From contig JALLAZ010000424.1 of the NCBI GenBank assembly GCA_036939755.1, positions 1 through 12,391 on the forward strand: DNA of 12,391 bases, given 5' to 3'. Source of the DNA: Stephanodiscus triporus (taxonomy: Eukaryota; Bacillariophyta; Thalassiosirophyceae; Thalassiosirales; Thalassiosiraceae). Under the pieces are notes generated by a model. That model had not been told where the DNA came from. It made no database searches and saw only the letters and a list, made by a program, of their open reading frames with translations. How positions within the stretch are numbered: position 1 is the first letter of the stretch; each line of letters begins with the position of its first letter. A program made the position numbers and the translations under genes. Positions 1 through 12,391 of this stretch are shown here, piece after piece.

Positions 1-327
1 AAACTTGTCTAGGTAGTGAATAATGATACCTAATTTCTTAAGTTGTTGTTGTTGATGGTGGTGGTGGCTGGCACTTTCCTCGGTCTGTGATTTTTTCGGG
101 GGGCGACATGATTTTTTCGCGGGCAACTTTTTTCAGGAGTTGTCTCAGCTCTCAGCAAGCTGACACAAGCGTTCAGAATTTCACCCACACAAGAAAACAC
201 AGAACAATGACTCCTGTGAAGGCGCAGCGCATGCCACGCTGATGACTTCCTATTTACTCTCCTCCTCCAGTTATATTAATACATAGTCATAGAGAACTAG
301 AATCTACTTGAATCTACTTGAATCAAG
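1..327. other. Upstream region of the CoA-transferase gene, with short tandem repeats
   Basis: I see no convincing gene here. The region holds GTT and GGT trinucleotide-rich sequence near 43-70, a tandem pair of about 21 bp (88-108 and 109-129) sharing TGATTTTTTCG, and an exact 10-bp tandem duplication at 301-310 and 311-320 just before the start codon. An AT-rich stretch near 268-285 could belong to the core promoter, but no TATA box can be assigned with confidence. It probably contains the promoter and 5' UTR of the downstream gene. Confidence 0.5.
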
Positions 328-2209
328 ATGATGAGCCTCCCGAGGAGCTACAGCAACCTCTTGCGTCGCTCCGGACGAGGTTGCGCAAAATCTACAATAT
401 CTTCCGCGGTAGTTCTGAACGTCATCCCGCCATCAGTCCGACCTTTGCGGCAGCTGGCACTGTCAAGCGCGTCGAATCTTGCTCCATGGGGCTCTCCAGC
501 TCCGTGCGCTATTGACACTTACTTGACAACTAGGCGGCTCATTCACCGTCATCAAGAAACACCGACATCGAAACTTTGCCCCGACGCAAAAACCGCATTG
601 GCGCTTTCGGGGCTAAAGACCGGCGACACAGTTGCCGTGGGTGGATTCGGAAACGGGGGAATTCCCGAGACGCTGCTGAATTCATTGTCTTCTCATATTG
701 GTGGGCCGTCGAACTTGACAGTGGTAAGTTTAACTGCCGGCGTGGATTCCTTCGGATTGGGCAGGCTGTTCGAAGCAGGGAAAGTGAAGCGCATGATAAG
801 CTCGTATGTAGGAGAGAATAAGGTGAGCTTGGCTGCTCAATTGATTATCCTATTTAAGCTCTCAACGCCTGCGAATTCATTCGCTGACGCAAATATTATT
901 CAATATAACTCCTGCTACTTTAGAACTTTGAGCGCATGTTTTTCAGTGGACAACTGGAGGTAGAATTGGTGCCACAGGGTACGATTGCTGCTAGATTGCG
1001 CGCGGCTGGAAATGGAATGCCTGCTATTTTCACTCCGGCGGGAGCAGGGACGTTGTATGCCAACGGAGGGATTCCTCTCAAATATGCACCCGATGGCTCT
1101 GTGGCGGTGTTCAGTGAACCGAGACCAACACAGATATTCGATGGAAAAGAATATGTCATGGAATATGCACTGCGGCCTGAGGTCAGCCTTGTCAAGGCAT
1201 GGAAGGCTGACACACGTGGCAATTTGATCTTTAGAGGGACATCTCAAAATGCCAACCCTGACTGTGCTGTTGCAGGAAAAGTGGTGTTGGTAAGTGTTGT
1301 TTCGACTGCTTGTCAACAATTACCTGGTGCATCAAGTCAACTGCAACTTAATGTTGTGTCTGATGAACGCAGGCCGAAGCTGAAACGATTGTCGAAGCCG
1401 GTGAGCTGGATCCTGATGAAATTCACCTCTCTGGTGTGTATGTAGATTATCTGATACAGGCGGAAGACAACGAGAAGAGAATCGAGCGGCTACGGCAAAC
1501 AGTCGCTGGCCAAGTGGCTGATATTTCGGGACCTCGAGGTAGGATTGTCAAACGGGCAGCGAAAGAATTCAAAGATGGCATGTACGTGAATTTAGGGATA
1601 GGTATACCCACAATGGCATCATCCTTTATACCGCATGGAGTTCGCATCGAACTGCAGGCGGAAAATGGTTTGATGGGGTTGGGACCTTACCCAGATCCAG
1701 CCATTGGCCAACAAGGTGATGCAGATTTCATAAATGCAGGCAAGGAGACAGTCACCGCAATCCGGGGTGCAAGCTCCTTCTGCAGCTCGGAAAGTTTCTC
1801 GATGATACGAGGCGGCCACATAGATCTAACCATCCTCGGCGGAATGCAATGTTCTAGTTCCGGAGATCTTGCCAGTTTCTTCATCCCGGGTGTACTGCTC
1901 AAGGGAATGGGAGGGGCGATGGATTTGGTGAGCTCTCCGAGCACAGTAATCGTAACCATGGAACACACTGCGAAAGACGGCTCGCCAAAGATATTGAAGG
2001 AGTGCACTCTGCCTCTCACTGGCAAAGCAGTCGTGGATAGAATTATCACTGACATGTGCGTGTTTGACTGTGACAAGAAAGGCTTAAAGAGTGGAGGCTT
2101 GACCCTCATCGAGATTGCCCCTGGAACAACAGTAGATGATGTTCGAGCGGCAACTGGCTGTTCCTTTGATGTAGTAGATGGTCAAATCCCAGTGATGGAA
2201 GAGCCGTAG
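328..2209 (+). CDS. OXCT1: Succinyl-CoA:3-ketoacid CoA-transferase (SCOT), mitochondrial, three exons
   Basis: Exons are 328-822, 924-1289 and 1373-2209, giving 565 residues. Introns of 101 and 83 bp have GTGAGC..TAG and GTAAGT..CAG ends, both phase 0, and splicing restores the family alignment (GENK-NFER; VVL-AEAETIVE). The family moves CoA from succinyl-CoA to acetoacetate in mitochondrial ketone-body and leucine catabolism. Residues 105-114 carry GGFG..GIPE, followed by the AGVD.FGLG and SSYVGEN signatures. The beta-type half has NLGIGIP near 360 and QAENG with the expected catalytic glutamate at about 384, then GMGGAMDLV and TMEH. Both halves lie on one chain, as in eukaryotic SCOT. The N-terminal 75 or so residues are Arg/Ser-rich, lack acidic residues until D63 and have no hydrophobic signal peptide, which suits a mitochondrial presequence. 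The protein is longer than the roughly 520 residues of animal SCOT, mainly because of this leader. ATG at 331 is an alternative start. Confidence 0.93.
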
Positions 2210-2670: not shown

Positions 2671-3672
2671 CTACATCGTGTTCGGCGCCGTCAAATCCAC
2701 GTCGTCCTCGTCCTCGTAAAAATACTGCTGCGGGAGGGGGATTACGTACCGACTCGGGACCCTCCTGTGCGGGGTCTTGCCGCTCTCCTGATCCTCGTCG
2801 TCCTCGAACTTCAGTATCACCTCCTTGACGCGCGGCTTGTGCGCGTTGCCGACCCCCCCGGAAACGAGGTCGGCGGACGTGCCGGACGTCCAGGTCGGCT
2901 GCTTCGACACGATCGCGCGGTAGAAGCTCGTGGTCTCGGGGAAGATGGCCATCACCCTCGCCCCCTTCTCGAACCACCCCTCCGTGCCCGTGCTCAGACG
3001 CATGACGTGATTCCAAGGCAGGCGTATCAGCTTCGAGGTGTCGTCCTCGTCCTGGACGTCGTACGTCTCGCTGTCGGGGTAGAACCGCAGCACGTACGCG
3101 AGTATCCACGATCCGTTCTCGTCGGTCCGGGTCACCTTCGCGGCCACCTGATCGCCCTGGTTGGCCGCGAACTTGCGACGCTTCCACTTGCGTCGGGCGG
3201 GGGAGAGGGCCTGGCCGTCGAAGTGCGTCGTGGAACGAACGTAGTCCGCCAGGAGCTGGTCGGCCGCCGCGGAGAGGGCCTTCGTCCCGCCGTGGCCGCC
3301 GGAGGAGGAGGAGGAGGACGACGACGACGACGACGACGACGAGGACGTCCCGCCGCAGCCCCCGCCGGCGAGATTGGCAGGCAGGGGTGGAGGCTTCGGA
3401 TCGTCCTTCCCCCCCGCCTCGAGGCGTGCGAGGAATCCCCCGACGGCCTGCTCCTCGTTGATGTCGACGGACTCGAAATGCTGGGCGACGGCCACGCCCA
3501 ATTCGCTCGGCGGCGCCTCGGCGGATATGGGTATGCCGTAGTGGCCGATGTAGGAGAGTTGGGTGCTAACCGAGAGCGTTCTGAAGTCCACGCTCACGCC
3601 GCGGGGGTACCGCTGCGAGTATTTGCGGCTGGTCTTGCCTTTGGAGTTGGGGACTGGGACGGACTTGGCCAT
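2671..3672 (-). CDS. SGF29: SGF29-type double-Tudor protein with N-terminal SAP30-like region
   Basis: A single exon of 333 residues, starting at the first ATG of the frame (3670-3672). Residues about 172-316 match the SGF29 C-terminal tandem Tudor domain: a GDQVAAKV start, W..AYVLRF, YDVQDEDD, then VMAIFPETTSFYRAIV, a KFEDDED segment and VPSRYVIPLP. In SAGA and related complexes this domain binds histone H3 methylated on lysine 4, using aromatic residues such as those in the FYRA segment. Residues about 28-84 resemble the Sin3-binding region of SAP30 (VDF.TLSV.TQLSYIGHYGIP, then ELG.AV..HF.S..INE). The usual SGF29 N-terminal coiled coil is not evident. Between the two lie a 15-serine run and a basic stretch (RRKWKRRK) that could be a nuclear signal. 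The C terminus is acidic. The Tudor assignment is firm; the SAP30-like assignment is by pattern only. Confidence 0.85.
   Translation of the reverse strand: MAKSVPVPNSKGKTSRKYSQRYPRGVSVDFRTLSVSTQLSYIGHYGIPISAEAPPSELGVAVAQHFESVDINEEQAVGGFLARLEAGGKDDPKPPPLPANLAGGGCGGTSSSSSSSSSSSSSSSGGHGGTKALSAAADQLLADYVRSTTHFDGQALSPARRKWKRRKFAANQGDQVAAKVTRTDENGSWILAYVLRFYPDSETYDVQDEDDTSKLIRLPWNHVMRLSTGTEGWFEKGARVMAIFPETTSFYRAIVSKQPTWTSGTSADLVSGGVGNAHKPRVKEVILKFEDDEDQESGKTPHRRVPSRYVIPLPQQYFYEDEDDVDLTAPNTM
3301..3345 (-). repeat. Serine-codon microsatellite (15 serine codons)
   Basis: Fifteen consecutive serine codons in the SGF29-type gene: one TCC, eight TCG and six TCC in that order, lying between the SAP30-like and Tudor parts. 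The purity of the repeat suggests recent slippage and possible length differences between alleles. Confidence 0.9.
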
Positions 3673-4011
3673 GATCGTTTCCAATGGGTGTCTGTCTACC
3701 TATCGTAGGGATGTTACGATGTTTGTAGAGTAGAGTATCTACGTAGAGTACATACGTATTGGGTGGGGGCTGCGAGTAGTAGAGTATCTAAGTACTACTC
3801 TAAGTACGAAGAAAGTAGGTTTAGAGAAAAGCACTCTTAGGACCTTAGAGTTGTTCCCTTCGTTGCGGAGCACACCGGAATTTCCCTCGCCATTCAATGC
3901 CTCTTGTATTTCGCCTGTCATTGCCAACGATAGACATACCCTCTCACGTGGTATGGTAGTTTTGCCGACACCCTCCTTGCATGAAACTTTCTTGCTGCAA
4001 TCTTAAGCACC
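3673..4011. promoter_or_regulatory. Divergent promoter region between the SGF29-type and Rab18 genes
   Basis: The two start codons face away from each other across 339 bp, so this must hold both promoters. A 13-bp exact direct repeat, AGTAGAGTATCTA, occurs at 3729-3741 and 3778-3790. An 8-bp inverted repeat, GAGTAGTA/TACTACTC, lies at 3774-3781 and 3793-3800. No TATA box is evident. Whether the repeats are regulatory is unknown. Confidence 0.5.
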
Positions 4012-4878
4012 ATGTCTTCAACACCTAAAGGATCGCAATCGTTTCCATATGATCATCTGTTCAAACTTCTCATGATCGGCGACGCTGCCGTTGGAAAGGT
4101 GAGTATGGTGGCCTCGCGCTGCGTCGCGTTGCGTTGATGGAGATGATTGTATGATTCAGCGGTCCGCAAACATCCTCCCGACGTGAATTCACAACGGCCG
4201 ATCCCCCCATATGGCCGCCCCTCGTTTCCCCATTCCTCGCCCACCGCATGCAATCGGATGCGCCTCACGTCGCAGTCGTCCATGCTCATCCGCTTCACGG
4301 ACGACGCATTCGACGAACACATCCAATCGACCATCGGCGTCGACTTCAAGGTCAAGCACCTAGAGCTCAACAACAAACGAATCAAACTCACCGTGTGGGA
4401 CACAGCCGGCCAGGAACGATTCCGCACCCTGACCTCGTCGTACTACAGGGGGGCGCAGGGGGTGGTCATGGTGTACGACGTAACGCGCCGCGATTCGTTC
4501 GATAATTTGGAGCACTGGCTGAAGGAGGTTAAGTTGTACAGTCCGAACAATGGCGAGGGGGTGGTGAAGCTCCTGGTGGGGAATAAAATCGATCTGCCGG
4601 ACAGCGGCGATGGAGAGTACGAAAGGCAAGTGGACAGACACGAGGCGGAGGAGTGGGCTAGGAATCAGGGGATGCTGTTCCTAGAGGCTAGTGCGAAGAC
4701 GAGGACGGGCGTGCAAGAATCTTTCATGGAGGTGGTGCACAAGATATTGGAGGATCCGGATTTATTGCTGAACACTGTCCCTGGAAAGCCAAAGGCGGTC
4801 AATTTGGCGAAGGGCGGGGGGGTGGGCGGTGCCAAGGGCATGGACCTTGATGATGGCGAAGGGGGTTACTGTTGTTGA
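4012..4878 (+). CDS. RAB18: Rab18/RabC-family small GTPase, two exons
   Basis: Exons are 4012-4098 and 4276-4878, giving 229 residues. The 177-bp intron (GTGAGT..CAG, phase 0) falls inside the P-loop, between K29 and S30. GTP-binding motifs are complete: GDAAVGKSS (23-31), switch I T48, WDTAGQE (70-76), NKID (132-135) and SAK (168-170). RFTDDAFDEH, IGVDFKVK, LTSSYYRGAQG and VYDVTRRDSFDNL are the Rab18/plant RabC signature. The C terminus ends GGYCC, a double-cysteine site for geranylgeranylation. Rab18 proteins act in ER and lipid-droplet membrane traffic; that role here is inferred from the family. The two alanines in the P-loop, where most Rabs have Ser-Gly or Ser-Ala, are slightly unusual. 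ATG 4012 is chosen because it opens the only frame leading to the P-loop. Confidence 0.95.
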
Positions 4879-5757: not shown

Positions 5758-8700
5758 TTAACTATCCATAGTGTGCTTTCTTTTACGGGGCGATTTCCTT
5801 CTTCGCAATTCCTCTGACCTTACCTCCTCTTTGAGCGCTTCAATCTCCCGCACGGCAATACGGGCCTCGTTTCTTTCCTGCTTGCTTATGCTCTTGACTA
5901 TGTCTCCTGATGTGACGCAAAAGGCACAACTCCAATCACATTCGGGTACTTGCACTAGCTTGGGACGGGTGCAGCCCAAATGAAACACAAGGTTGCACGT
6001 GGAACAACAGAGGAGCTCTCCAGGCTTCCCACATGTCTCGCACAAATCATTGTGATGTATCTCATCGGCAGCTTCCGTAACCGTGTTCCTTTTCTCCTCC
6101 AACTCAGCAAGCCTTCGGAGGTCAGCCATGCTAAGGTCCTCGAAGTCATCATCTTCAGGATAGTGGCATCGACGGTCTTTGTCGTTGTCTGTTCAATAAA
6201 AAAGGTGATAAAATAACTTGCTTATCAGATCTGAAGGTAGAGAACAGTGGCGAGGAAAGTGGAAAGGGATCAACAGGGAAGAAAGAAAAACGTACCTGTA
6301 TTTACAATCTTTACAACCACACCATCGAACCATTTGCCATCAAACTCCTTTTTGAACTGGTAACCCACAGACCCGAACGAATCCATTGATTTGGATTCCA
6401 GTCGTGCACAACTCTCGAGTTCGGCAATGCACAGATCCTCGATGTGGCCATTAGCAGCATAAAAACACTTTCTATCTTTGTCTGAAAGGGTGCAGTAGGG
6501 GAGGAACACGACATAGCCCACAAATAAGATAAAGAAGAAGAAATGCACAGACATGAACGATGTGTCACTCACCAGTGTCAGATAAAATATCAACTACCTC
6601 GCCTTCAAACCAGCCCAGATCCGTCCCACTTTCATCGATGAAGTTTTTGCGGAACTTATATCCGACTCCGAAGTCCCCGTCTTTAACATTACGGTAGACC
6701 TTGTCGGAGCTAGATTCAGTGTCAGAGCTAGAAAATACTTGTTCGATTTCTTGGGCTTTCGCCTTGGCTTCTTTCACACTCCGGAAGCGTTGGCCCGTAG
6801 GGGAAAAGTAATTCCATCCTGGGCCAGTTGCAGGAATGTCCTTGGTGATTCTAGACGTTCTCACTTCTACATCAGCTGCAACGAGAGCGAGAGAGGGTGT
6901 TGTGGGGGTAGTCAGAGCCTTAATTGCTTCATCCTTCTGTTCGTGTTCTTCAACACCACGTCGTGGACTCGTACGAGAGGTTGTTTCAGCGCACATAACG
7001 GGTGAGGTCTTAGCATTTACTGCATCGGACTTTTTCATGGGATAATACGCCGCTTTCCATTCATCGAGGGTGAATACTGCCTTATCTGTATTTTGATTCT
7101 TGCTGGACTTGCCTTCATCTTCGACTTTTGCTCTCTTGCTGTATTTTCTCTTCCCATTGTCAACCTGGCATGCTTGGAAAGGAGCAAATGCAGCCTTGCG
7201 CATTAACATGACGTTTTTCTTTGCTTGTTCAGGAGTAGGATCGTCGTCCTTGAAGGCGCCAAAGCAATCGCGGGCCAATTCATATGCAACCGCGGCATCT
7301 ATCTTGGTTTCAAAAACTCCGATGTAACGAGATTTTCCAGCATAGTATAGTTGGACTTGCTGTAAAAAATGTGGAAATATTGACGACAGATGAGTGTGAG
7401 TGCTCTTTCGTGGACATGAGATAAATAAACAAAAATGATACTACACTTACCCATTTGCCAGACGGTCTAACAGTAATGCCGCGTGGCAATGCCTCTGCCA
7501 ATGTCTTGGCTTTTTCGTAAATATCAGAACCGAATTTACGCTTCCGGCTCTCCTCTGGAACATTCTCCGTGACTACTTCTCTGGTGGTGTTTTCGGGCTT
7601 GCTCACTTTTGGTAGGTTCTTGGGTCGAACACATTTGACGTCCTGTTTGGAAGATTTTGCCTTGGCATTCAAATCAGCTTCGACTTTGACTTTGGTAACA
7701 TGTGACCTCTTTAAATCGGACAAGGCTTGGACAACATTTGCTCTCCTTGACTTGTCTTCTGCCGCAATCTTTTTCCGATCAATTTGCTTGGATTCTTCCA
7801 CCCTGCTGCTCCTGTATGAATCTCTAGAAAAGGCAGCCTTGCGCATCACATCAAGGTTACGCTTTATCTGCTCTGGACTTGGATCGGCTTCTTTGAATGA
7901 GCTCATGCAATCTCGTGCGATTTCGTACGCCAACGAGGCCTCCTCTTTTGAATCGAAAAGTCCTATGTAGCGAGAGTTTCCAGCGTAATAGAGCTGAACT
8001 TGCTGTAGGTATCATGTTGTTCAACAGAAATGGTTGTGAGATAAGATTACACAGAGGAACACAAGGAAACGGGCTGTTGCCAACTCACCCATTTACCAGA
8101 GGGACGGACTGTTACACCGCGTTCTACACTGGTTGGGGCGGTGAATATTCGTGGCTTTCTAGTGACATCATCTTCGTTATTGTCTTCCTCACCACTATTA
8201 TCACTGTCCATGTCCTCAACTTCATCTGCACTTGCTTCGTCTTCACTCTCCTCATCTTCAATTTCTCTGGCTAAATTCTCAATTGTAGGAGTGGATCTAA
8301 TCTTCAGACCATACTTCACACCACGTGCCTTGGCGTCGAGCTCGGCCCTTATGTTGGCAAGCTCCGCCCTCATTCTTTCCTCCTCACTCCTATGGTTTCC
8401 ACCAGGCTTCCTCTGTCCACTCCGGTTGACAGCCTTGTTTTGTTCCAACGGAATGGCATCCACCTCCATTGCAGATGGTTTCTCATCGAGCTTTCTCTTC
8501 CTTATCAGGCAACGCCGATGGAAGCACCTTCTCCTTGATTTGTTGGGGCCCCCAAACTTTGGCTTGTCAATACACGCCCTGCACTTGCCGCAATCGACAC
8601 GTTGGCAATTCGCACAGGTGCCGCAGTTCAGTCCTCTGACCCTCTTAGTTGTAGGTAGACTACTTTTCACTTCTTCTGCTTCTTCTGATTCTTCTCTCTC

Positions 8701-11700
8701 TGCTTCCTCCTCATTGTGTGCGTCTTCATCATCAATACCATCATCTTCCCAAGATCCTGCCTCTTCAAACGACTGTGATGTAATCGAACACAACAAATCC
8801 AACGACGACGTCGGTTTCTCCTCCAATACTTCCAAGCCCAGGTTCTTGGCATACGGCGTGTGAGACCATGGAAAATTCGCCTCCTCCAACAATCTCAGCC
8901 GTTCTTCTGTCAACGATGTAGATTCGTTGTTCTCAATACGTCGGTGCTGCTTACGACATTCCTTGACAAAATTCTTGACGCGGCTCCGAATTTCGTCATC
9001 CGGAATAACAGCGTAGTTTATTAGCCCTCCATCCTCGATGCAAGGACGTAAGAATTCGAGGTTTTCGGCCCATCTTTTTTCGGCTTCAACCACGCTTCGG
9101 TGTAGTGCCATAATCTTCCCATCCTCAATTGGCGATTCTGTTCCGTCAATGGCCAGTAGCTTCGATGTTGCAGACGCATAAAATGAAGCGTCAAATGTGG
9201 GGACAGGATTCATATTGGGACATCGCCGCATGAGACATTTCTTCCTGAGACGATTCGGCCCACCAAACTTAGGCTTATCAAGACAAAAATTACACTCGCC
9301 ACAATCGTCGCGCAAACAAACTTCGCATCGTCCGCACATCGCCTTTCGCACGTTGGGGTTTCTCTCTTGCTGAGTTGCATAGGATGCGGATTGAGACCGC
9401 CAGGAGCTATCCGTGGATGATATTGCGGAGGATAGGAGATCAAGTGGCGAAAGAAATGTTTGCTTAGTTGGATCTCCTAATGCCCCACTATTTGCTACAA
9501 ACTGGCAATCATTCCGGTCGAATGGTGATCCTCCATAAAGACCTGGGTGATGATGATCTGGTGCAGGAGAAGTTGGTCGCGAGAAAGTGCCAATAAACGA
9601 TGACATAGCGGAGGAGAGAAGATCGAGTGGCGACGGCATTCTTGGCTCTCCTGGTTCTCCAACCTTTGATGCAATGACGCCTGGCTGATGAGGACCTGGG
9701 GCGGGAGCAGCAGCGGCGTGATAATGAAGTTGAGTAACAGTAGTCGGTGAGATCTGCTGTTGACGGGGGAGACTCATGGTTGAGTGCAACTTTGACGTAC
9801 TCGTGATGGGACTCGCACACTTCCCGCCGCTCACGAGCGCCTCGTCGAATGGAATTCCGTAGTACTTCATTTCCTTCATAAAATCCTTCCTGCGTACGCT
9901 CGGCGGCAGCTGCACTTTTTCGTTGCAGACGTAAAAAATGCAGTGACAAAACATTTCGTAATCGCGTGGAAGGGGAATGGCCATGTCGCCGACACGCATG
10001 GCGGAGCGCGTTATCGCGGCAATCTTTGAGCCCTCATGTTTCAATAGTATCTCAGTTGGAACTTGGACAACTGTGCCCCCGAGATTGAACTTCACTTGTT
10101 CCTTCGGAGGGGAGTTTTCCGCATTCAATAAGGGAAAGCTTCTAACTTGCCAAGACGTTGACAGCTTAGAAGCTTTCGCCTCAATGACAGGAGACGACAC
10201 AACTCTTTGGCTTTGTTCTTTTGGCTCGTAGCTGTTGCCGCCTTGATCCACAGAATCAATGCATTCAATGCCGTTCATTGCATTTTTCGCAGGTGAACTG
10301 GCACGACCTCCAGTCATCAACATCATGGCAGCTGCGGCAACTGAATCAGCAGCTGATGAAATCGCATCTTCGTGGTCCTGAAGTTGAAGTGCAGCCGTAG
10401 CCTCAGCGGGGGCAGCCGAAGGAGGAGTAACCTCGGGGGCCTGAAACAACTCTGATTGAGAACCAATTTGAAGTGGTGGGCGAGGACGAGACTCATGGGC
10501 TTGGCTGGAACTATAGATTGGCGAGATATCATCGTACGGATGACGCGGCGCGTCTGGAAGTGTGTCCAAAACTTCACAGGGGAGAGGATCACGCTCGGCC
10601 AGGCCGTGTCGCTTGCGCAATTCGTTCATCATCGGACGCCACAGCCTACGGCGATTGTTGCTGCAAAATATTGTGGGGAACAGGCGTACGAAATGAATAG
10701 CGATATGAATAACGAAATGAATTACGGTCAGCGGGGGGCGCAAAGACGAAAAGCACGGAAACGACAGATCCAGCGACACTAATTTACTCACACAAACCAA
10801 TTCTTCAACTGGGGCTTCTCCAAACCGGTGGCTCGCGATAGATCGGCATAGTTCTGCTCCGACGGATAGGGCTGTTCGATGTGCTGCCTCGATAGCAACC
10901 ACGACCTCAAGTAGTCGACGGCCAGTTGATTTAACTTAGGATGGCCGCTGCGGTCCTTCCTCTTCTTGTCCGACGATACAGAGTCGGGCGACTCGTTCGA
11001 GCTAGACACAGAAATCGACGCATTTTCGAAATCGTCTGATGTCTTCCATGAGTCACTTGCGGAGTTGGCAACGGTCTCTGGGTGAAGTATTGCCGTGTCA
11101 TGGTCGTAATTAGGCATCGGATGGGAAGGGTCCGGCGAAGATGGCTTCGCGGACGTTGCGAGTAAATAACTCAGTGGATTATCCTCCTTGGAACCATCGC
11201 GGCTCTCCTTCTGGTTATGAGAGCCTACCCTCGCAACGGAAGGAGGGGAAGGAGCTCTATCCGCGGTCTTCTCTCTTCCCGCGTCGGCCGCGACGGGAGC
11301 GGGGGTGGCGGTGGAGGATCGTTTGGCACTCTCGAGGGCCGCCAGCACCTCGTTGGCGCGTTTTTCCTTGGCGTCCAGCGAGTCCCTTGCCTTACATTGC
11401 TTCTTCCACGTCTTCTTTTGCCAATCCTTGTGTTGAGACTTGGCCCTTAACTGAGAGGCCTTTTCGGCCGCATCCGTCCTCTTGGTGCCGCGTGCGGCCT
11501 CCCATTCGTCGAGGTCGAATACCTTCTCTTGATCCCGTTGATGAGGCCCAGGGGCGGCCTTGCCGTTGCGATGTTGCATCGCCGAGTAGTACTCGGTAGC
11601 CGTGGGAGACCTGGGACGTTGGTTAAACCAGCCGGGGGCGGTTCGACGATAGTCGACGGGATCGGGATGGACGTACTTGGGCGGCAGACGCGGCACGACG

Positions 11701-12176
11701 ATCCCCTCGCCCCACCGGCCGTGCGTCGGTACGATCCTCTGGGGGACGAGCTGTTCCGCATCCTCCTCCCCGACCTCTCGGGGGATGTCGTCCCCTCCGC
11801 GAGCTTGTCCGGTCCCTCCCACTCGGGGGGGGGGGGGATCGGCCCGTTCGCCGTCATCCTCCGTCCGGGCCTCGCGCGCGATGGCGTCCTCCCTCCTCTT
11901 CTTCGAGATCTCGTCCGAAACCTCTTCGGCGCCGTCCTCGGAAGTATCCGAAGGATCCTCCTCCTCCTCGTCGTCCCTCGTCGACGACGAAGCGCCGTCC
12001 CGCGAACCCGACGCCCGGGCGAACACTTCCCCGGTCCCACCGTCCTCGACCCCTCCCCCGTCGTCGTCGTTGCCACGTGCGTCTGCGTCCTCGTCCATCT
12101 CCTCGTCGGACGCCAACGACGACGCCGCGTCGGCGCTCGAGTAGAGGAGATTGCCGAGCAGGCCCACGCATTTTCC
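5758..12176 (-). CDS. Giant chromatin reader/transcription factor: TALE homeobox, BTB, 2 CXXC, HA-like, 2 AP2-like, 2 Tudor, PHD (5' end uncertain)
   Basis: Exons on the minus strand are 12176-10792, 10660-8089, 8002-7451, 7359-6573, 6481-6296 and 6188-5758, giving about 1970 residues. Introns are 131, 86, 91, 91 and 107 bp with GTGAGT, GTAAGT or GTACGT donors and CAG acceptors. Every intron cuts a domain that splicing restores in frame. Order by residue: acidic disordered region with a KKRK basic cluster (1-410), TALE homeobox (415-475), BTB/T1 (651-732), CXXC (904-942), HA-like (991-1062), CXXC (1141-1179), acidic and helical stretch, AP2-like (1309-1377 and 1493-1561), MBD-like fragment (about 1683-1712), two PTM-type Tudor domains, PHD (1877-1918) and a basic tail with SPRKRK. 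It is probably a nuclear protein reading DNA sequence, CpG status and histone tails. The 5' end is open: the frame runs back to a possible acceptor at 12177-12178, and the first in-frame ATG is at about residue 24 (EEMDED). Function is inferred from domains only. Confidence 0.88.
5917..6042 (-). other. PHD finger
   Basis: Residues 1877-1918. It has the Cys4-His-Cys3 pattern with canonical spacing: CETC, eight residues to CSTC, four to His, two to Cys, and a final WSCAFC. PHD fingers bind histone H3 tails. An acidic run upstream and a coiled, basic tail downstream (SPRKRK) complete the C terminus. Confidence 0.93.
6103..6380 (-). other. PTM/DIR17-type Tudor domain 2 (split by intron 6189-6295)
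   Basis: Residues about 1800-1856. GSVGYQFKKEFDGKWFDGVV, then NDKDRRCHYPEDDDFEDLSMADL. It is a clear duplicate of domain 1 and lies directly before the PHD finger. In plant PTM a Tudor-like domain also lies near a PHD finger. Confidence 0.72.
6408..6678 (-). other. PTM/DIR17-type Tudor domain 1 (split by intron 6482-6572)
   Basis: Residues about 1731-1790. GVGYKFRKNF, then GWFEGEVVDI and, after the intron, DKDRKCFYAANGHIEDLCIAEL. The fold pattern is K.F...W..G.V......Y.V.Y.DG..EDL...EL, as in plant PTM. Confidence 0.7.
6733..6822 (-). other. MBD-like fragment
   Basis: Residues about 1683-1712. GPGWNYFSPTGQRFRSVKEA resembles the methyl-CpG-binding domain pattern (PpGW..., then Y.SP.GK..RS..E). 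The segment between GW and YFSP that normally holds the DNA loop is missing, so this is either a shortened relative or a chance match. Confidence 0.35.
7048..7077 (-). repeat. VF.LDEW.AA motif, copy B
   Basis: VFTLDEWKAA at residues 1598-1607, after the second AP2-like domain, followed by KKSDAVNAK. It matches copy A at eight of ten positions. Confidence 0.7.
7186..7483 (-). other. AP2-like DNA-binding domain 2 (split by intron 7360-7450)
   Basis: Residues 1493-1561. RGITVRPSGKW, then QVQLYYAGKSRYIGVFETK and AAVAYELARDCF. Most positions match copy 1, including the C-terminal DP.PEQ and MRKAAF. The intron is at the same place and phase as in copy 1. Confidence 0.82.
7829..8121 (-). other. AP2-like DNA-binding domain 1 (split by intron 8003-8088)
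   Basis: Residues 1309-1377. RGVTVRPSGKW, then after the intron QVQLYYAGNSRYIGLFDSK and an EEASLAYEIARD helix. This matches the AP2/ERF pattern of three strands (G.....SGKW, RYIG.F) followed by an A-rich helix. A charged extension ending MRKAAF follows. Confidence 0.82.
8509..8625 (-). other. CXXC zinc finger 2
   Basis: Residues 1141-1179. It has eight cysteines in the same spacing as finger 1, with DCGKC, CIDKPKFGGPN and RRC. The two fingers share CxDKPKFGGPN, so they arose by duplication or were homogenised. Confidence 0.92.
8782..8808 (-). repeat. SSLDLLCSI linear motif, copy 3
   Basis: Residues 1080-1088, after the HA-like domain and before the second CXXC finger. It is a diverged third copy; a downstream GSW (residues 1097-1099) echoes the SSW after copy 2. 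Confidence 0.6.
8860..9075 (-). other. Helicase-associated (HA)-like domain
   Basis: Residues about 991-1062. Helical sequence with W..NLEFLRP, then VKNFVKECRKQHRR and LTEERLRLLEEANFPW. The pattern of basic helix, LT.ER...L and a final F.W matches the HA domain seen in multiple copies in diatom and bacterial proteins. Only one copy is seen. The call is by pattern. Confidence 0.6.
9220..9336 (-). other. CXXC zinc finger 1
   Basis: Residues 904-942. All eight zinc-binding cysteines are present in C-x2-C-x2-C-x4-C-x2-C-x2-C order with the two distal cysteines, plus the KFGG motif that contacts CpG DNA and an RRC end as in DNMT1, MLL and CFP1. The family binds mainly unmethylated CpG. Confidence 0.92.
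9424..9450 (-). repeat. SPLDLLSSA linear motif, copy 2
   Basis: Residues 866-874, followed by ISSTDSSW. DNA similarity to copy 1 is also visible (GAGATC.AGTGGCGA on the plus strand), consistent with a local duplication or with strong constraint. Confidence 0.75.
9607..9633 (-). repeat. SPLDLLSSA linear motif, copy 1
   Basis: Residues 805-813 of the large protein, in a disordered Pro/Ser-rich linker after the BTB domain. An almost identical motif follows 55 residues later. Confidence 0.75.
9850..10095 (-). other. BTB/POZ domain of the T1 (KCTD, K+ channel tetramerisation) type
   Basis: Residues about 651-732. The pattern VKFNLGGTVVQVPTEIL, a basic/Ser stretch, IPLPRDYEMFCHCIFYV, then VQLPPSVRRKDFMKEMKYYGIP follows the T1 BTB fold: NxGG start, D-R-D-like turn with F, LP, and FYGI-like end. 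Such domains mediate oligomerisation or cullin-3 binding. Here an oligomerising role is inferred. Confidence 0.8.
10621..10934 (-). other. TALE-class homeobox (domain, split by intron 10661-10791)
   Basis: Residues about 415-475. Helix 1 is followed by the loop QPYPSEQ, the three-residue extension that defines TALE homeodomains, then TGLEKPQLKNWFV and, after the intron, NNRRRLWRP. W48, F49, N51 and R53 (homeodomain numbering), which contact DNA or build the core, are present. The intron splits the valine codon of WFV (GT|C). Confidence 0.9.
11493..11522 (-). repeat. VF.LDEW.AA motif, copy A
   Basis: VFDLDEWEAA in the N-terminal region before the homeobox (residues about 219-228), followed by K/T-rich sequence and a DAAEKA segment. 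The same motif recurs about 1380 residues later. Confidence 0.7.
11825..11837 (-). repeat. Homopolymer of 13 G (13 C on the coding strand)
   Basis: The run sits inside exon 1 of the large gene and encodes consecutive prolines. The frame stays open on both sides at this length, so 13 is probably right, but it is a likely site of sequencing or replication slippage. Confidence 0.85.
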
Positions 12177-12391
12177 CTGATGTTAGTGTTTTATCATATT
12201 TATTATTCCGAGCACGGGGCGGGGGAAATGGTGGGGAGGGCGAAGGGAGAGGAGAGAGAGAGAAAATGACGGACGATGGGGCATAAAAAAGAGGGAGAGG
12301 AGGTAGGTCCCACGTCGGGTGTGAGAAAATGAATGACAATCGGGTGGGGGGGGGGGGGGGGGGGGGGGGAAAAAAAACAAAAAAAAAAAAA
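12177..12391. other. Low-complexity region at window edge, upstream of the large gene
   Basis: On the minus strand, TAACATCAG ends at 12177 and looks like a 3' splice acceptor for exon 1, with CTAAC just before it. The rest is purine-rich on the plus strand and holds no supported gene. It ends in a run of 24 G (12346-12369) followed by near-pure A to the end, which looks like a contig edge or assembly artefact. Confidence 0.5.

Follow-up and report, generated by a model that had tools for sequence, protein, structure and literature searches.

A probable diatom gene that appears to encode a very large nuclear protein joining modules usually found in separate proteins

A six-exon gene on the minus strand of the window (the whole stretch of DNA analysed, 12,391 bases, which makes up all of contig C422 in an assembly of 21.65 Mb and 1324 contigs) appears to encode a very large nuclear protein joining modules that usually occur in separate proteins. 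A single molecule may thereby recognise a DNA address plus the surrounding chromatin state. Our main reading, to which we give a probability of roughly 0.55, is that this one gene, most probably from a diatom, would code for a multivalent chromatin adaptor that binds unmethylated CpG DNA as well as unmodified H3 tails. The TALE homeobox, two complete KFGG-type CXXC fingers, a KCTD-like BTB/T1 domain and a C4HC3 PHD finger were well supported. Two putative AP2-like domains were supported by profile, and two Tudor/Agenet-like domains, one HA-like domain and an MBD-like fragment were weak candidates.

Gene model and overall domain evidence

Six exons and five introns joined into a single frame of 1970 amino acids in which the only stop was terminal. 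The introns measured 131, 86, 91, 91 and 107 nt, and all of them were of the GT...AG type. The exons were as follows.

10792..12176, minus strand: exon 1, acidic N-terminus, first copy of the LDEW motif and first part of the TALE homeobox; frame used is the best of six
8089..10660, minus strand: exon 2, end of the homeobox, BTB, CXXC finger 1, HA-like domain, CXXC finger 2 and start of AP2-like domain 1
7451..8002, minus strand: exon 3, end of AP2-like domain 1 to start of AP2-like domain 2; phase 0-0, 552 nt
6573..7359, minus strand: exon 4, end of AP2-like domain 2, second copy of the LDEW motif, MBD-like fragment and start of Tudor-like domain 1
6296..6481, minus strand: exon 5, end of Tudor-like domain 1 to start of Tudor-like domain 2; phase 1-1, 186 nt
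5758..6188, minus strand: exon 6, end of Tudor-like domain 2, PHD finger, basic C-terminus and stop

The initial annotation had proposed six exons joined in frame to about 1970 residues, with every intron inside a domain and a single gene instead of separate neighbours, and these proposals were borne out. The spliced frame gave 1970 amino acids plus a stop, and codon usage ranked it best among the six frames in each of the six exons (training on 7 hand-picked ORFs of the same genome, 4857 codons, with a stop penalty that favours open frames). The junctions fell at residues 461.7, 1319, 1503, 1765.3 and 1827.3, all within domains (with the Tudor bounds as set here), and exon 2 alone held everything from the end of the homeobox to the start of the first AP2-like domain in one open frame. 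Introns had lower codon-usage scores than every whole exon.

The N-terminal 250 residues were the least supported part of the 1970-residue model, as the windows of residues 1-150 and 101-250 scored -0.31 and -0.34, within the range of the introns. The first in-frame methionine was residue 27 (forward-strand coordinate 12098). Since a stop and an acceptor-like ACACTAACATCAG preceded exon 1, whose 5' edge resembled a splice acceptor, the gene model is 5'-incomplete, and translation starts either at residue 27 or in an upstream exon perhaps lying beyond the contig. Runs of poly-G and poly-A occupied the contig end (window positions 12341-12391), a possible assembly edge that would have removed the 5' end of the gene.

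The domain set of the initial annotation stood for the homeobox, the BTB, the two CXXC fingers, the PHD finger and the AP2-like domains, while its HA and Tudor domains were found as sub-threshold profile matches only and the MBD-like fragment had been overlooked. The Pfam search suggested there for the spliced protein, run on the full length, placed zf-CXXC and Homeobox_KN above their cut-offs, left PHD and BTB_2 short of theirs and did not list AP2. When regions were cut out, BTB_2 and PHD rose above the cut-off, and AP2-1, Agenet, PTM_DIR17_Tudor, HA and MBD stayed below it. Internal repeats were called from pairwise shuffle tests, because a self-blastp of the protein listed the identity match alone and no repeat; the AP2, Tudor and CXXC pairs each outscored 1000 of 1000 shuffles.

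The homeobox, BTB and CXXC half

The first half of the protein harbored the following features.

10621..10928, minus strand: TALE homeobox, residues 417-475, split by intron 1; Homeobox_KN 5.5e-12 (full-length Pfam), Meis2 3.3e-12
9850..10095, minus strand: BTB/T1 domain, residues 651-732; BTB_2 24.8 bits when cut out
9598..9633, minus strand: SPLDLLSSAxSS motif, copy 1, near the CXXC fingers
9415..9450, minus strand: SPLDLLSSAxSS motif, copy 2, near the CXXC fingers
9217..9351, minus strand: CXXC finger 1, residues 899-943, 8 cysteines, KFGG
8875..9084, minus strand: HA-like (helicase-associated) domain, residues about 988-1057; PF03457 E 0.0058, below cut-off
8506..8631, minus strand: CXXC finger 2, residues 1139-1180, 8 cysteines, KFGG

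The homeobox displayed the TALE loop extension with PYP and a recognition helix of the form WFxNxRRR. This helix was whole only once intron 1 was removed, as unspliced exon 1 ran into a stop inside it, and the Homeobox_KN match ended at model position 35 of 40 without splicing and extended to position 40 with it. The homeodomain with its loop PYP resembles those of the Meis/TGIF TALE proteins (Meis2, E 3.3e-12). Its loop exceeded that of Meis2 by two residues, a difference also seen in two other homeoboxes of the genome (C63 and C6), and Meis/TGIF proteins are not known to carry CXXC, BTB, AP2 or PHD domains. On another contig (C553, L023:4784-8998, minus strand), SET/SDG2_C, HMG box and Homeobox_KN (TALE homeobox) matches shared one open frame; behind it, on that strand, lay one frame with a CW finger and another with three further Homeobox_KN matches. 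Unusual domain mixing in regulators is a point of likeness to the stramenopile transcription factors of mixed domains treated in PMC4827209, which names bHLH-PAS and bZIP-LOV (aureochromes) as stramenopile combinations and in whose main text 'CXXC', 'PHD' and 'BTB' occur 0 times.

The BTB_2 profile matched the BTB/T1 region above its cut-off of 21.4 bits when the region was cut out (24.8 bits) and fell short in the full-length scan (18.1 bits). The single-sequence structure model of the region was poor (mean pLDDT 51.2). Among the best 50 of the 381 PDB matches obtained with this model at E 10, 42 were KCTD BTB/T1 chains, and the others were channels (potassium or designed) plus a single Kelch protein; the best E-value of this fold search was 0.017, with no match at 0.001. 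A sequence search of the PDB with the region gave no relative better than E 0.17, and a genome search gave no second match at E 0.001. From the BTB_2 profile and the low-confidence fold model, the domain is predicted to be KCTD-like.

The two CXXC fingers were matched by zf-CXXC at 7.5e-21 across two stretches, above the Pfam cut-off (full-length scan), and their solved relatives by sequence included CFP1 (E 2.6e-11) and DNMT1 among the best 60 of 99 PDB matches. Two complete KFGG fingers recall the ZF-CxxC proteins CFP1, KDM2A/B, FBXL19, MLL, DNMT1 and MBD1, from which the present protein differs by a homeobox, AP2-like domains and a BTB added within one chain. KDM2 and MLL also combine CXXC with PHD, and MBD1 combines CXXC with MBD. 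At the aligned position of what we take to be the CpG-contacting glutamine of CFP1, finger 1 carried K and finger 2 carried R, so the CpG preference of these fingers may differ from that of CFP1. Between the fingers, the HA-like region reached 17.3 bits in Pfam for a cut-off of 28.4, and its structure model, with a mean pLDDT of 44.7, was too uncertain to be informative. A weaker third SLDLL copy (residue 1080, window 8770-8808) gave a score reached by 83 of 1000 shuffles against copy 2, which is not significant, and by 8 of 1000 against copy 1, which is borderline.

The AP2-like, Tudor-like and PHD half and its exon structure

The features of the second half, together with both copies of the LDEW motif, were as follows.

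11460..11537, minus strand: LDEW motif, N-terminal copy, exon 1 (pairwise shuffle test)
7907..8124, minus strand: AP2-like domain 1, residues 1308-1351, split by intron 2; PF00847 4.2e-5, below cut-off
7261..7483, minus strand: AP2-like domain 2, residues 1493-1536, split by intron 3; repeat of AP2-like domain 1, score reached by 0 of 1000 shuffles
7018..7095, minus strand: LDEW motif, C-terminal copy, exon 4 (pairwise shuffle test)
6769..6828, minus strand: MBD-like fragment, residues about 1681-1700; PF01429 E 0.009, below cut-off
6402..6678, minus strand: Tudor-like domain 1, residues about 1731-1792 (bounds set here), split by intron 4
6112..6365, minus strand: Tudor-like domain 2, residues 1805-1853, split by intron 5; Agenet 5.5e-4, PTM_DIR17_Tudor 9.5e-4
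5917..6042, minus strand: PHD finger, residues 1877-1918, C4HC3 complete

The first AP2-like domain scored 24.2 bits against the Pfam AP2 cut-off of 33.3, and the second, 68% identical to it, had no Pfam AP2 match of its own when cut out. A profile built from the four AP2-like copies found in the genome (the second domain included) matched the plant AP2 domains of WRI1 (2.1e-4), TEM1 (5.1e-4) and AtERF1 (8e-4), and the next chain, a non-AP2 one, followed at 0.0028, which displays similarity to solved AP2 domains. This is the likeness to the AP2/ERF factors; in contrast to these, the domains here lay below the Pfam AP2 cut-off, contained an intron at a shared site and were placed in a chromatin-reader protein. 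Several DNA contacts of AtERF1 are altered in them. An open reading frame of a viral contig (L045:5001-5111), which we read as HNH-like, contained an AP2-like stretch sharing 49% identity with the AP2-like core of the present protein, a likeness to phage HNH-AP2 endonucleases. An HNH-AP2 origin has been proposed for the AP2 domain, and this match agrees with it. It was the single locus returned overall by searches of viral contigs (CXXC-HA-CXXC region, AP2 profile, PHD) and of genome contigs (AP2 profile), and a tblastn of a 32-residue piece against plasmids gave no match.

The MBD-like fragment reached 16.1 bits for a cut-off of 21 and covered positions 35-50 of 77, and thus not a full domain. 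It was not among the matches of the genome-wide MBD search at E 0.001, whose sole family match (C341:2914-3096, L064) lay in a 773-residue frame and scored 25.8 bits, above the cut-off.

Tudor-like domain 1 was recognised solely as a repeat of Tudor-like domain 2 (0 of 1000 shuffles), and the Tudor region stayed under the Pfam cut-offs with 20.8 bits against 27 for Agenet and 19.4 against 27.2 for PTM_DIR17_Tudor; a PDB sequence search with it gave no relative better than E 0.22. The PHD finger passed its cut-off of 24 bits when cut out (30.1 bits) and fell short in the full-length scan (21.4 bits). Among the best 60 of 99 matches of the full-length PDB search, the PHD region was related to CHD4, KAP-1, PHF21A/BHC80, AIRE and TIF1/TRIM33. 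PHD fingers of the CHD4/BHC80/AIRE class mostly read H3 unmodified at K4. A Tudor-like domain shortly upstream of a PHD finger recalls the plant arrangement of a PTM/DIR17-type Tudor beside a PHD, but the Tudor score here was sub-threshold and the full-length Pfam scan gave no DDT match at E 1 or better, whereas PTM carries DDT.

Introns 2 and 3 interrupted the two AP2 repeats at an identical phase-0 site (after KW). AP2 copies on two other contigs (C1099 and C93, two paralogous genes) contained a GT...AG intron at the same site, which was thus common to all four AP2 matches at E 0.001, in three genes (genome search, 5 candidates scored). Introns 4 and 5 were both of phase 1 and, once the Tudor repeats were aligned, lay no more than two residues apart, with an offset of two residues in the best alignment; a related Tudor on C50 had no intron at that place and read through it. 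Because the AP2 introns share one site and the Tudor introns share a phase within two residues, these alignments suggest that the gene grew by exon duplication, and the symmetry of exons 3 (552 nt, 0-0) and 5 (186 nt, 1-1) fits this expectation. The LDEW repeat between exons 1 and 4, a motif chosen post hoc, gave a score reached by 0 of 1000 shuffles; when its exon-1 copy was used to search the genome at E 0.001, the copy in exon 4 was not recovered.

Judged by similarity, the majority of the modules have counterparts elsewhere in the genome, in other genes, as CXXC, PHD and Tudor matches were found on other contigs. A single further CXXC match was found in the genome (C295, L044), with a PHD on the same strand in a different frame. 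The Tudor-PHD query gave 12 genome matches, three within this gene and nine elsewhere, the latter including a PHD with 66% identity on C290 and a Tudor with 53% on C50.

Proposed function, alternative readings and neighbouring genes

The proposed adaptor, of nearly 2000 residues or more, would dock on unmethylated CpG DNA through its two KFGG CXXC fingers, as predicted from their family, while the TALE homeodomain, and probably also the AP2-like pair, would supply a sequence address. The C-terminal Tudor-Tudor-PHD part, with a PHD akin to the CHD4/BHC80/AIRE class, would test whether the H3 tail is unmodified at lysine 4. Copies of the protein would oligomerise through the KCTD-like BTB, with a gain in avidity, and this domain may also bring in partner proteins. 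Co-regulators would dock on the acidic N-terminus and on the short SPLDLL motifs. DNA methyltransferase family matches occurred on 4 contigs of the genome, so CpG state could vary in it.

A reading that gives the chromatin domains less weight takes the protein as mainly a TALE-class, DNA-anchored transcription factor, with specificity from homeobox and AP2 and with chromatin domains that are accessory or partly degenerate. The homeobox was indeed the strongest sequence-specific DNA-binding match, and the Tudor, HA and MBD-like matches were sub-threshold, but the CXXC and PHD fingers look constrained because they retain every zinc ligand, and we consider this reading rather unlikely. Less probable still is a corepressor platform, in which CXXC, a PHD for H3 unmodified at K4 and BTB would bring silencing complexes to CpG-rich promoters or transposons: CHD4, KAP-1 and PHF21A/BHC80, all among the PHD matches (best 60 of 99), have repressor roles, but the acidic N-terminus would equally fit activation.

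That two or more adjacent genes were read together, or that the contig is chimeric, seems very improbable. In favour of this reading, the gene model is known from genomic DNA alone, the contig has just 12391 bases and ends in homopolymer runs, and the coding score of the first 250 residues was weak. This reading would nevertheless have to account for five introns out of five that interrupt domains completed by splicing, for an AP2 intron site common to two paralogous genes, and for the stop that unspliced exon 1 reaches within the recognition helix of the homeobox.

If the multivalent adaptor reading is true, diatoms would target chromatin states through CpG and histone reading that is covalently coupled to sequence-specific DNA binding. 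Animals and plants usually divide DNA binding and chromatin reading among partner proteins. The gene would also offer a single knockout target for the coupling of DNA methylation and histone marks to diatom transcription. More tentatively, and as a possibility short of an even chance, it may represent a diatom class of all-in-one regulator, built by exon duplication, in which one oligomerising polypeptide would read DNA sequence with its homeobox and AP2-like domains, CpG state with two CXXC fingers and perhaps what is left of an MBD, and histone state with Tudor-Tudor-PHD. It would then be one case of a wider tendency in this lineage to join TALE homeoboxes to chromatin machinery, with the SET, HMG box and TALE homeobox frame on C553 as a second gene of this kind.

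Outside this gene, a silicon transporter family match of 758.8 bits was obtained in the same genome, and one of 14 control genomes matched, below the family cut-off. This match makes a diatom the most likely source; it is strong evidence but short of proof, because related transporters also occur in organisms other than diatoms. In the window, an uninterrupted frame of 342 amino acids (2671-3699, minus strand) encoded a SAP30 Sin3-binding region (2.4e-5, above cut-off) and an SGF29 Tudor (1.2e-28); we take the former to be a Sin3/HDAC part and the latter a SAGA part, joined in one 342-residue protein. A CoA transferase gene (322-2209, plus strand) and a Ras-family (Rab-like) GTPase (4147-4878, plus strand) were ordinary neighbours.
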